A DNA stretch of 64,000 nucleotides from an uncultured Roseicyclus sp. (GTDB taxonomy: Bacteria > Pseudomonadota > Alphaproteobacteria > Rhodobacterales > Rhodobacteraceae): contig CANLEH010000006.1 in assembly GCA_947489665.1 (NCBI GenBank), positions 186,001-250,000 of the forward strand, in the 5' to 3' direction. The notes below the pieces were generated by a model, which saw nothing but the letters and a program-made list of their open reading frames with translations, was not told the DNA's origin and made no database searches. Position 1 is the stretch's first letter; every line of letters begins with the position of its first letter. A program made the translations under genes and the position numbers. Shown one piece after another: positions 4,339-56,181 of this stretch.

Positions 4339-4605
4339 GGTTCTGCCTCAAACGGGCCGGTTGGCCCACAAGTCCGTGTCGCCCCGATGGGGCGGATAGA
4401 TCACAACGCCTCTGACGGGCGCATTGGGGGGAGATTCGCACATTCCAGCGGCTTTGGGAATCCCCCCTGACGGATTGCGATTCGCATGCCTGAAGCACTT
4501 TGCGTTTTATGCGAGGCACTCTTATCGCGTTCCGCGTTCGCGCCATCGGCGCGAGGCAGCGGGTTGCGATTCAAATCAAACGCAAAGTGATCTAATCTTG
4601 CGCCC
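4339..4605. other. Intergenic region ftsB / aidB-like gene
   Basis: 267 bp between divergent genes, so it must hold both promoters. It contains a short hairpin (CGCCCC-GAT-GGGGCG, 4380-4394), and the MITE-like element 4494-4591 fills the part nearest the acyl-CoA dehydrogenase gene. No further coding potential was seen. Confidence 0.6.
4494..4591 (-). mobile_element. MITE-like element, copy 1 (98 bp)
   Basis: Non-coding element with terminal inverted repeats AGCACTTTGCGTTT (left) and AAACGCAAAGTGAT (right, two end bases degenerate), and an inner hairpin CGCGCC-GAT-GGCGCG. In reverse orientation it shares a 58-bp identical run with 53980-54070. The flanks are CTGA (4490-4493) and CTAA (4592-4595), compatible with a slightly decayed 4-bp target duplication. 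It ends 14 bp before the ATG of the AidB-like gene, so it forms that gene's leader or promoter. No transposase is encoded in the window. Confidence 0.8.
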
Positions 4606-53389: not shown

Positions 53390-53417
53390 CCGCCGGGGTC
53401 GACGCCCCGGCGGTTTT
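53390..53417 (+). terminator. Intrinsic terminator of coxSLM
   Basis: Perfect 9-bp stem CCGCCGGGG / CCCCGGCGG with a 6-nt loop, followed by TTTT. It lies 25 bp after the coxM stop and ends before the acetyltransferase ribosome site. Confidence 0.9.
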
Positions 53418-53433
53418 CATTTGGAGGTGGCGC

Positions 53434-53979
53434 ATGTCCGAACGACAGAAGATGGAGGCTGGTGACTGGTATTCATGCCTCGATGACGCGCTGGGTGAAT
53501 TGCGCAACCGGGCCCGTGTGGCCTGCCATGCGCATCGGACAGAGGCTCCGCAACCCTTGGCCGCTTTGTCTCCGGCGCTGGCGGAATTGCTCGGTACACC
53601 GGGCGAAAATGCCCTGATCGAGGCGCCATTCCATTGCGCCTACGGCGTGAACATCCATTTGGGCCGCAATATCTATATCAATGCCAATTGCGTCATTCTG
53701 GATTCGGGTCGGGTGACGATTGGGGATGGCACGATGATCGGGCCGGGCGTGCATATCTATTGCGCGGACCACCACCGCGACGTGGATTTGCGGCGGAAAG
53801 GGATCGAACGCGCCTTGCCAGTGACCATTGGCGTCGATGTCTGGATTGGCGGCGGCGCGATTGTGATGCCGGGCGTCACAGTCGGCGATGAGGCGATCAT
53901 CGGGGCAGGGGCCGTGGTAACGAAAGATGTGGCGCCGGGTGCGCGCGTTGTTGGCAACCCGGCGCGCCCCTTGGGTTAG
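53434..53979 (+). CDS. Maa/NodL-type sugar O-acetyltransferase
   Basis: 181 residues. An N-terminal helical region (EAGDWYSCLDDALGELRNRARVACHAH) is followed by a left-handed beta-helix of hexapeptides (NIHLGRNIYINANCVILDSGRVTIGDGTMIGPGVHIYCADHH...). Catalytic His lies in the YCADHHRD loop (maltose acetyltransferase has TATHP). Acetyl-CoA-dependent acetylation of a sugar is expected; the acceptor is unknown. GGAGGTG precedes the ATG. Its TAG stop is part of a TTAG that is duplicated on the far side of the MITE-like element. Confidence 0.9.
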   Translation: MSERQKMEAGDWYSCLDDALGELRNRARVACHAHRTEAPQPLAALSPALAELLGTPGENALIEAPFHCAYGVNIHLGRNIYINANCVILDSGRVTIGDGTMIGPGVHIYCADHHRDVDLRRKGIERALPVTIGVDVWIGGGAIVMPGVTVGDEAIIGAGAVVTKDVAPGARVVGNPARPLG

Positions 53980-54070
53980 AGCACTTTGCGTTTGATTTGA
54001 ATCGCAACCCGCTGCCTCGCGCCGATGGCGCGAACGCGGTCAGAGTGCCTCAGATGAAACGCAAAGTGCT
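53980..54070 (+). mobile_element. MITE-like element, copy 2 (91 bp), with TTAG target duplication
   Basis: Perfect 14-bp terminal inverted repeats AGCACTTTGCGTTT and AAACGCAAAGTGCT, an inner hairpin CGCGCC-GAT-GGCGCG, and TTAG directly on both sides (53976-53979 and 54071-54074). 58 bases are identical to copy 1 (4494-4591) read in reverse. It sits between two convergent genes and leaves both stop codons intact. No coding content. Confidence 0.88.
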
Positions 54071-54337
54071 TTAGCGGTGGCCGGGCAGGAATTCCATGTG
54101 GGACCGTTCGACCAACGACTGATCAAAGTTCAAAGCCAGAACAAACGTGACACCGTTGTCGGTTTCGACCGTGTAGCTGACAGTCCCTTCCAGCCGTGCG
54201 ACGGGGGAAATCTCCGTCTGCCCATTGCTGGTCACGCCTTGCAGACCCATCGATACACGGCCGCTGAAATCAAGCCCTTCGGCCTGCGCCGCGCCTGCGA
54301 TTGCGATCAGTGCGATAACACTCAGTACTTTTTTCAT
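54071..54337 (-). CDS. Short porin-like exported protein (88 aa)
   Basis: Signal peptide MKKVLSVIALIAIAGAAQAE, then LDFSGRVSMGLQGV and VARLEGTVSYTVETDNGVTFVLAL, which read like the first few strands of a Rhodobacter general porin (a barrel of about 300 residues). It stops after 88 residues, so it cannot form a barrel. It is either a conserved small protein or a remnant of a porin gene. Its TAA stop is the complement of the TTA in the MITE flank. The ATG at 54337 is chosen because the signal peptide starts there. Confidence 0.55.
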   Translation of the reverse strand: MKKVLSVIALIAIAGAAQAEGLDFSGRVSMGLQGVTSNGQTEISPVARLEGTVSYTVETDNGVTFVLALNFDQSLVERSHMEFLPGHR

Positions 54338-54462
54338 TGGTAAACCTACTCGCTTTGAACGTGGTTCATCATAGACACGGGCGTTTCGACGGGCCGAGCA
54401 AAAAAATGACCGCGTCCAGGGATTAAGCGAAAATCTGCTCAATGGTCAAACCGGAACGGCCA

Positions 54463-54492
54463 CAAAAAAAGCGCGTCCTGGTTGGACGCGCC
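54463..54492 (-). terminator. Intrinsic terminator of infC
   Basis: Minus-strand stem GCGCGTCC / GGACGCGC with a 5-nt loop, then seven U. It begins 24 bp after the infC stop. Confidence 0.92.
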
Positions 54493-54515
54493 TTCGACAT
54501 TTATGGACCAATCCA

Positions 54516-55058
54516 TTACTTCACCGGGTTGATCATCATCACCATCTGGCGGCCTTCCATCTTGGGCATGGATTCGATCTTTCCGATCCCCTCGACCTCA
54601 TCGGCCACCTTTTCCAGCATCTCGCGGCCAAGGTTCTGGTGCGCCATCTCGCGCCCCCTAAAGCGCAGGGTGACCTTCACCTTGTCGCCCTTTTCGAGGA
54701 ACTTGAGCGCGTCTTTCACCTTCCGCTCAAAGTCGTGGTCGTCCGTACCCGGACGCATCTTCACTTCCTTGATGTCGATGGTCTTTTGCTTCTTGCGCGC
54801 TTCGGCTTCGCGCTTCTGTGTCTCGTACTTGAACTTGCCGAAATCCATGATCTTGCAGACCGGAGGGTCAGCGTTTGGCGAGATTTCAACAAGGTCGAGG
54901 TCCACCTCTGCGGCCAGATCCATGGCGCGGGCGGGGGTGACGACACCCAGGTTTTCTCCTTCGGCACCAATCAGGCGCACTTGGTCGGAACGGATGCGGT
55001 CGTTGACGCGCGGGCCGGTATCACGTTGCGGCGGCGCGTTATGGGGTCTGCGGGCTAT
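54516..55058 (-). CDS. infC: Translation initiation factor IF-3, probable ATA start
   Basis: 180-residue IF-3. N-domain ([23 protein letters not shown]), linker, and C-domain ([45 protein letters not shown]). No ATG/GTG/TTG exists upstream of a GTG at residue 27, and starting there would cut off conserved VNDRIR. The frame extends cleanly to an ATA codon at 55058 (ATA GCC CGC AGA), with AGAAGGA 8 nt upstream, giving exactly the E. coli length. IF-3 rejects non-AUG starts, so rare start codons on infC are the known autoregulatory device. Confidence 0.9.
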
Positions 55059-55248
55059 GGCGTATGTCCTTCTGTAGCCTTTTTCCTTGGGTCGTAAAGG
55101 TATCTGCCCCGCGCCCCTTCTTCAAGGCGGGAAAAGGGGCATTTGCGTGCAAGGGGGAATGATCGCACATTTGCGCCATTGCGCGCGCCGTTGGCGCGGG
55201 TTAATCGCATTTTCGTGATTTATGAATGACCCACATGGGGGATCCAAG

Positions 55249-56181
55249 ATGAGCAGAGCTCTTATTATCATCGTCATTCTCGCCGCTCTCGGCGTTGGTG
55301 GCTATTTCCTGACCCAAGGTGAGACGCCTTCGGTTGAAGACGCCGTGGAAGCCGTTGGTGAAGCAGCTGGTGATGCAGCGGACGCCGCTGGTGAAGCTGT
55401 AGAAGGCGCCGTTGAGGCCGTCGAAGAGGCAGCTGGCGAAGCTGTTGAGGCGGCGGAAGAGGTCGTCGAAGGGGCTGCTGACGCCGTTGAAGGCGCCGTC
55501 GAAGACGTAACCGGTGCCGCAGACGAGGCGACTGAAGCGGCTGAAGAAGCTGCTGCTGCCGCTGAGGCTGAGGCCGCTGAAGCTGCTGCCGCAGCGGAAG
55601 CCGAGGCTGCTGAAGCCGCCGCTGCCGCAGAAGCCGAAGCTGCTGCCGCAGAAGAAGCCGCTGCAGAGGCTGCAGCCGCTGCTGAGGCTGAAGCTGCAGA
55701 AGCCGCTGCCGCCGCGGAGGCCGAAGCTGCTGCTGCGGAAGAAGCCGCTGCGGAAGCCGCCGCTGCCGCCGAGGCAGAAGCCGCAGAAGCCGCCGCTGCC
55801 GCAGAAGCCGAAGCTGCTGCCGCTGCTGAAGAGGCCGCCGCTGCTGCTGAAGAAGTGACCGAAGCCGCTGAAGGCGCTGCAGAAGATGCAGCCGCCGCAG
55901 TTGAGGGTGCCGCAGATGAGGCAGCCGACGCTGCTGCAGAAGGCACTGAAGCTGCTGCCGAAGCCGCAGATGCGGCTGCGGGTGGTGCGACGGAGATCCT
56001 GTCGAACCTCTTCACCGAAGAGGGCTTTGACTTCGACCAGGCGACCGCTGCCCTGGAAGAGGCTGACATCTCGGCCCCAGTTCGCCTGGCCGTGACCACT
56101 GCGTTGCAGGGCGCTCAGGATAACCCTGATCTGCTGGGTGCAGCTCTTGAGCAGGCCCGCGCGGCACTCGGCCTCGAATAA
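55249..56181 (+). CDS. Membrane-anchored Ala/Glu-rich low-complexity protein
   Basis: 310 residues. N-terminal transmembrane anchor (ALIIIVILAALGVGGYFL, about 4-21). Residues about 30-240 are almost only Ala and Glu (some Asp, Val, Gly), predicted to form a very long acidic helix. Within it two 29-residue units repeat in tandem at DNA level (55651-55737 and 55738-55824). The C-terminal 65 residues are normal sequence (TEILSNLFTEEGFDFDQATAALEEADIS...LEQARAALGLE). Function unknown. The ATG at 55249 follows GGGGGATCC. It is divergent from infC and ends at a strong terminator. Confidence 0.75.
   Translation: MSRALIIIVILAALGVGGYFLTQGETPSVEDAVEAVGEAAGDAADAAGEAVEGAVEAVEEAAGEAVEAAEEVVEGAADAVEGAVEDVTGAADEATEAAEEAAAAAEAEAAEAAAAAEAEAAEAAAAAEAEAAAAEEAAAEAAAAAEAEAAEAAAAAEAEAAAAEEAAAEAAAAAEAEAAEAAAAAEAEAAAAAEEAAAAAEEVTEAAEGAAEDAAAAVEGAADEAADAAAEGTEAAAEAADAAAGGATEILSNLFTEEGFDFDQATAALEEADISAPVRLAVTTALQGAQDNPDLLGAALEQARAALGLE
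55651..55824 (+). repeat. 87-bp tandem repeat inside the Ala/Glu-rich gene
   Basis: Two consecutive 87-bp units encoding the same 29 residues (starting EEAAAEAAAA), with only synonymous differences (GCT/GCC/GCA/GCG swaps). Flanking sequence is built of the same 11-residue motif (AEAEAAEAAAA), so the array can expand or contract. Confidence 0.8.

Follow-up and report, generated by a model that had tools for sequence, protein, structure and literature searches.

A short element between two convergent genes

The window, by which we mean the whole 64,000-nucleotide stretch of DNA analysed, belongs to an uncultured Roseicyclus sp. whose genome (G000) comprises 4.13 Mb and is 99.95% complete. Genes were called by a hexamer score trained on the window and not taken from annotation. 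Two of them converge, one on the + strand at 53434-53979, whose product looks like a hexapeptide acetyltransferase when the translation is judged by eye, and one on the - strand at 54071-54337, whose start codon is uncertain. Between them, with a TA on either side (53977-53978 and 54072-54073), lies a 93-bp element at 53979-54071. Both genes keep their own stop codon: the left TA together with G53979 forms the TAG stop of the + strand gene, and the right TA together with the A opposite T54071 forms the TAA stop of the - strand gene. Searches of positions 53400-54600 found neither an intrinsic terminator nor a sigma-70 promoter. Further along the window, at 55222-56181, there is a long low-complexity ORF rich in alanine and glutamate.

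The exact 14-bp inverted ends and the flanking TTAG on each side given in the preliminary description are both present. The sequence AGCACTTTGCGTTT occurs at 53980-53993 on the + strand and at 54057-54070 on the - strand with 0 mismatches each, in agreement with a 13-mer scan, and is part of a longer imperfect inverted repeat of 24 nt (53977-54000 against 54050-54073, 88% complementary). Short, non-coding and bounded by terminal inverted repeats, the element has the features of a MITE. Its + strand folds at -54.7 kcal/mol, where shuffled sequences average -27.75 (z -8.3; none of 200 shuffles equals it). We place it on the - strand, on which the terminal repeat here called arm2 comes first (54050-54071, 22 nt, AAGCACTTTGCGTTTCATCTGA), followed just inside by GGCA (54046-54049), a core at 54010-54039 made up of strand A (CGCGTTCG) and strand B (CGAGGCAGCG) with an inner hairpin at 54017-54033, and the other terminal repeat, arm1 (53979-54000, 22 nt, GAGCACTTTGCGTTTGATTTGA on the + strand), with ATCG just inside it at 54001-54004. 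In IS630 elements the counterpart of arm1 is the 5' end and that of arm2 the 3' end. The element is about 7 bp short of the usual 100, since inner bases present in most other copies are missing; a covariance model whose alignment includes this copy matches it at C6:239977-240073 with 91.4 bits.

Dispersed copies and empty sites

The genome holds 22 near-full-length copies at 80-100% identity and one partial copy. The second copy in the window (4491-4594, + strand) lies in the opposite orientation, with arm2 on the left and the terminal TA of arm2 now TG; the 58 consecutive identical bases that the preliminary description had reported in common between the two copies are exactly right. A 17-nt end pattern was matched in 15 of 394 genomes of the family, several of the single matches proving on inspection to be no element, and an end-pair pattern run against public genome contigs returned 49 stretches, by title nearly all from Rhodobacterales, with one in a Ruminococcaceae MAG. 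A search of plasmid DNA with the window element as query gave no match.

Empty sites were sought by joining the flanks of the first 15 of the 22 copies around one TA and comparing them with 13 genomes of the genus. The relative G001 gave a match across the junction for 12 of these 15 copies, and the site of one copy (L008) is empty in ten relatives. The sites of both window copies are empty in G001. Among 20 aligned locus pairs, 16 have a clean single TA at the join. The other four involve L012 in three relatives, of which two carry TGA at the site and the third gives a shifted alignment, and L007 in one relative, which carries CA. At the site of the window element, G001 reads GCT TAG CGG, with the element absent and a single TTAG in which the TAG and the TAA of the two convergent genes overlap. 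The reading of this stretch as a non-autonomous transposable element is thus upheld by its dispersed copies and its empty sites in relatives, and the family appears, from the comparison of these sequences, to have spread by transposition.

In the left flank of copy L013 (G000:C3:210789-210890), about 76 bp (2319-2396 of the joined-flank query) recur at a number of further places in G000 and in relatives at roughly 80-97% identity; this stretch is another dispersed repeat.

The duplicated target is TA

A 4-bp TTAG/CTAA target duplication had been proposed, and this did not survive comparison of the copies. Eleven of the 22 copies in G000 have both terminal TAs intact, and the flanking 4-mers are equal in only 4 of these 11. 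Just inside the TA, the first base is G at arm1 in 21 of 22 copies and A at arm2 in 20 of 22, whereas the outer Y and R vary. Because the 4-mers agree in 4 of 11 copies while the outer bases vary, it is the TA, and not 4 bp, that is duplicated: the target duplication is the TA within YTAR. In the window, G53979 and T54071 are the element's own first and last bases, and the YTAR is completed on the outside by T53976 and G54074. Duplication of TA is what is expected of an element mobilised by an IS630 transposase.

Ends of the IS630 type

The searches for a transposase in G000 covered three models. The whole genome has no match to DDE_3 (E 0.001) and none to DDE_Tnp_1, and DUF4096 gave 0 matches, so that the lack of a transposase already remarked on near the element extends, for these models, to the genome. 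A transposase in the same genome is not required of a MITE, and the lack of an IS630 match in G000 implies that mobilisation there would be historical.

Relatives supply the comparison. Thirty DDE_3 loci were fetched from the family; in 16 of them the inverted ends read YTA followed by RAG, with RAGC at both ends in 15. Ends of this type also bound the IS630 elements carried by plasmids of Dinoroseobacter shibae and Sinorhizobium meliloti (ISRm2011-2). An end matrix was built from the 46 ends of 23 IS630 copies; 14 of the 30 loci were left out of it, four for other or doubtful ends (L139, L140, L144, L145) and ten for having none, and seven copies were added (L044, L124, L125, L129, L136-L138), two of them broken by a contig end. 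The MITE arms score 22.2 and 22.1 bits on this matrix. Among the 1,840 TA-anchored 22-mers of the window, one scores as high as each arm, which is taken to be the window element itself as the scan returned counts without places. Matrix positions 1-4 are circular because the IS copies were selected for such ends; when scoring is confined to positions 5-22, the arm scores are reached by 2 and 0 of the 1,840 22-mers.

In many IS630 copies ATCG continues the 5' end, and a CATATCC string stands at the 3' end, at the C-terminus of the transposase. A 3'-end pattern was found in 9 of 390 genomes of the order. Its best match, L206, is a 1,055-bp IS with CTA and TAG flanks in another genus of the family (G067); two other matches, L205 and L210, proved to be MITEs instead of IS copies. 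Two overlapping ORFs of L206, which together would encode a putative transposase, match DDE_3 and the IS630 helix-turn-helix model (transpos_IS630), the catalytic ORF exceeding both cut-offs, the NCBIfam IS630 one included. The ends of L206 agree with the MITE consensus at 24 of 26 positions of arm2 and 22 of 26 of arm1, and each fits its own arm best (24 against 19, and 22 against 20). The ATCG inside arm1 recurs inside the 5' end of L206, of L200 and of several other IS630 copies, and the GGCA inside arm2 likewise has its counterpart in L206 and L200, inside their 3' end (GGCATATCC). Because these arm-specific inner bases match too, it seems that the MITE arose from an L206-type IS by internal deletion. 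The expectation that the end sequence would identify the mobilising enzyme was sound as to family, the end matrix and the ends of L206 both pointing to IS630. The search for a full IS with the same ends, also suggested there, led to L206, outside the genus, with ends that are similar and not identical. An IS lineage like that of L206 may well have made the copies.

Gene ends at the element

The coding frame ends at a terminal TAR of the element in 17 of the 22 copies of G000 (14 at arm2 only, one at arm1 only and two at both), and five copies lie away from stops. A similar rule applied to the window classes 21 of its 82 YTAR sites as stops (p 6e-7 against 17 of 22). Elsewhere, among best-scoring matches, elements sit in stop codons in 15 of 23 cases in a Ruegeria, 11 of 19 in a Rhodophyticola MAG and 5 of 15 in an Alterinioella. 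These counts draw on 79 elements from four genomes: the 22 of G000 and, among the matches listed, the best 23 of 24 for G429, 15 of 16 for G438 and 19 of 29 for G430, some contigs of which provide short flanks only. Across the 79 elements, coding frames that enter an end do so 57 times in the phase that yields a stop, twice in that phase with no stop present and 9 times in another phase. One exception is L005, where a gene reads into arm1 in another phase and runs into the element.

The relative G001 permits a comparison of the proteins themselves. All 13 gene ends at 11 empty sites stop there at the same codon, 12 of them with TAA or TAG and one with TGA. The last 40 residues at these 13 ends give an open, gap-free alignment with 30-39 of 40 identical; for the two convergent genes of the window the figures are 36 of 40 (+ strand gene) and 35 of 40 (- strand gene), each with the same stop codon. 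Since the protein ends are the same in G001, the insertions left these proteins whole.

Where the purine is absent, the pattern differs. In Alterinioella, the genome with 5 of 15 elements at stops, a purine is missing from the first base of 10 of 15 arm2 ends. Among 26 elements whose arm2 is not TA plus purine, none has a stop-phase frame entering arm2 and four have a stop at arm1. A second count found two frames, at L262 and L272, that enter such an arm2 in stop phase and find no stop there. At both loci a long coding frame in stop phase runs into an arm2 that starts TAC or TAT, and the proteins, read from the sequence, probably gain a few residues from the element.

Proposed explanation

These results are best accounted for, with high though not complete confidence, by a MITE derived from an IS630 element and moved in trans into the TA of YTAR, where it rebuilds stop codons that serve as safe sites. 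An IS of the IS630 family (Tc1/mariner superfamily) would have given rise to the MITE by internal deletion, its 5' end becoming arm1 and its 3' end arm2. An IS630 transposase acting in trans, of the kind not found in G000, would insert the element at a TA inside YTAR and duplicate that TA. Because the target is Y-TA-R and, in G000, the element starts with a purine at nearly every end (TA followed by G at arm1, TA followed by A at arm2), a TAA or TAG stop would be rebuilt and the upstream protein left unchanged; where convergent genes share one YTAR in overlapping stops, both stops would be rebuilt. Stop rebuilding of this sort would leave proteins intact and so make stop codons safe sites, at which copies would build up. 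We infer that the excess at stop codons stems from selection against harmful sites and not from a targeting preference. The window element is itself a MITE of the IS630 type, flanked by the duplicated TA, and belongs to a family that tends to lie in stop codons.

The hairpin core

A different account sees in the core a conserved, structured RNA module at the 3' ends of genes, kept for a role at the RNA level such as transcript-end protection, processing or protein binding, for which the IS630-type ends are a mere vehicle. We consider this unlikely. Covariation was examined in an alignment of 45 copies against a structure drawn from one of them, L002, a choice that inflates the proportion of paired cells. 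There are 71 cells with a change on each side, where shuffles give 28.7 and slid partners 19-32; the covariation score of 0.154 compares with 0.087 in shuffles and with no more than 0.060 after sliding. The inner helix of 12 pairs, 91% paired, has six pairs with changes on both sides. Such paired changes speak for an RNA-level role, but two stricter counts are no higher than shuffles: 12 pairs with a both-side change against 10.4 (117 of 500 shuffles as high), and 40 further pair types against 37.4 (76 of 500 as high). The RNAalifold consensus fold has 13 pairs only. Correction of a quasi-palindrome could, moreover, yield paired changes without selection, and the covariation of the hairpin is best called suggestive.

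The core also occurs under other ends, with strand A CGCGTTCG and strand B either GAGAGGCAGCG or CGAGGCAGCG. Sixteen of 51 distinct core matches are without the exact CTTTGCG string; by eye, about ten of these are point variants of the same ends, two are coding-like and four (L227, L238, L262, L280) have clearly different ends. Cores with different terminal repeats were met at plasmid and viral loci as well, and BLAST with other-ended core elements returned 33, 34 and 19 plasmid records, chiefly from the Roseobacter group. In ten elements, nine of them with ends unlike the exact window type, the identity of the two strands is 1.0 and 0.98 while that of the outer 16-mers, picked by eye, averages 0.61. 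The presence of one core under clearly different terminal repeats favours a module, yet because these elements were found through the core its identity is circular, and only the modularity is safe. The loose patterns, over 73 rows in which some loci appear twice, give the strand order A-B in 41, B-A in 9 and unclear in 23. Marinosulfonomonas and G007 have similar ends with a core that is different or strand-swapped.

In five of eight fetched plasmid loci (L302, L303, L305, L307, L308), these five on plasmids of the Roseobacter group, the intergenic stretch of 82-115 bp behind a type IV secretion (T4SS) gene contains the core hairpin, which reads in the same sense as that gene.

Position and orientation bear on the RNA-level reading in both directions. 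The loci between T4SS genes, all five in the sense of the upstream gene, accord with it, although they represent two operon positions and not five independent events. Some elements carry the stop on one arm only; arm2 is the one concerned in 14 of 15 such elements of G000, and the corresponding counts are 9 of 13 for Ruegeria, 5 of 7 for Rhodophyticola and 1 of 4 for Alterinioella. Pooled over the first three genomes the bias is 28 of 35 (p 5e-4); it agrees with an RNA module, and in G000 it counts against the explanation that we prefer. On the other side, Alterinioella has one stop at arm2 only and three at arm1 only, and in G007 and Marinosulfonomonas genes end at arm1, so the core there is antisense. 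Rfam covariance models gave 0 matches at E up to 1 in six loci and at E up to 0.5 in ten loci.

A broader variant would see a Rhodobacterales superfamily of stop-resident hairpins with interchangeable IS630-type ends and a selected, shared RNA or single-strand core at gene 3' ends. There the core would present an internal loop of GUU opposite AGGCA, also in swapped strand order, the ends would follow whichever IS630 lineage is active, and the core would act in, for example, T4SS operons. We hold this variant to be improbable, slightly more so since the two strict covariation counts are no higher than shuffles; any role for the core is putative.

Targeting and other origins

Returning to the IS630-derived MITE, the excess at stop codons might instead arise because the transposase itself prefers stop-codon contexts, as opposed to selection after insertion at any YTAR. 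This too seems rather doubtful. Its support is that, even when the comparison is restricted to non-coding YTAR sites of the window (50, of which 17 are stops, the elements' own sites kept in), 17 of 22 remains an excess, although a weaker one (p 4e-5). Non-coding YTAR sites include upstream regions, however, from which selection may remove insertions, and a frame scoring at least 20 that stops at an end was found for 7 of the 23 IS630 copies.

An IS5-type MITE that duplicates the 4-bp YTAR, in the manner of MITEPsy1 of Pseudomonas syringae, is very improbable. MITEPsy1, as described in the accessible part of its report, is 100 nt long and duplicates CTAG or YTAA (PMC3189936), and the TTAG on both flanks of the window element would suit such an origin; it was rejected on the unequal flanking 4-mers, on the ends of MITEPsy1 (GGAAGGTCTG...), which are unlike those of the window element, and on the lack of any DDE_Tnp_1 or DUF4096 match in G000. 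Seven DUF4096 loci of the genus were also inspected, and their two clearest inverted ends, TA followed by GGGTCTGTGG and TA followed by GGCTCCAGAC, do not match AGCACTTTGCG. A REP element mobilised by RAYT was set aside as well, REPs being palindromes of 20-40 bp with a GTAG tag in the accessible text of PMC3733652, against a 93-bp element inserted at TA. Nor is the element a described Rfam RNA family in the loci examined, for want of a covariance-model match.

Known relatives and implications

Palindromic intergenic elements of Alphaproteobacteria include RIME1 and RIME2 of the rhizobia, which by general description resemble the present family in these same respects.

The closest parallels come from further afield. 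In the accessible text of PMC2229807, RUP of Streptococcus pneumoniae, a MITE of IS630-Spn1, is 107 bp long, has IS630-like terminal repeats and inserts at TA. It is thus like the window element in size, type of terminal repeat and target, and unlike it in host and sequence and in lying often inside IS elements. The Correia (NEMIS) elements of Neisseria, of 107 and 155 bp with TA termini and stem-loop transcripts, are likened to ours by description and not by sequence, and for neither family does that text describe a stop-codon habit. ISY100, an IS630-family element of the Tc1/mariner group, inserts at TA and duplicates it according to the part of PMC2170065 available, and a title cited therein names a preference for TA in CTAG. 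ISY100 and the IS630 family are autonomous, whereas the window element has no gene; L206 shares both the ends and the transposase family. MITEPsy1 is alike in its 100 nt and YTAR-type targets and differs in its 4-bp duplication and its ends (PMC3189936, in part). MITEPye1 of Paracoccus yeei, a MITE of the same order with a long hairpin fold, has ends that are IS1182-like and not of the IS630 type, so far as the accessible text of PMC11578231 goes. In the accessible open-licence literature, PMC10969869 included, we found no description of stop-codon regeneration or of this element family.

The model amounts to a simple rule by which a transposon may multiply in a compact genome and yet leave proteins as they are: with YTAR as the target, TA duplicated and a purine as first base, stops would be rebuilt, overlapping convergent stops included. 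The subfamilies whose arm2 is not TA plus purine provide a natural test of this rule. An orphan repeat family acquires a likely mobiliser in an IS630 lineage, and the occurrence of a common core under differing ends turns the conserved hairpin module into a testable question.

Short TA-flanked inverted-repeat elements with other IS630-like ends (TAGGGCGCGTCGCGTTTAATCGG and TAGAGCGTTTCAGGTTTT) were also noticed in the Rhodobacteraceae MAG Vin_29, at L093:6266-6381 and L114:5895-6009.
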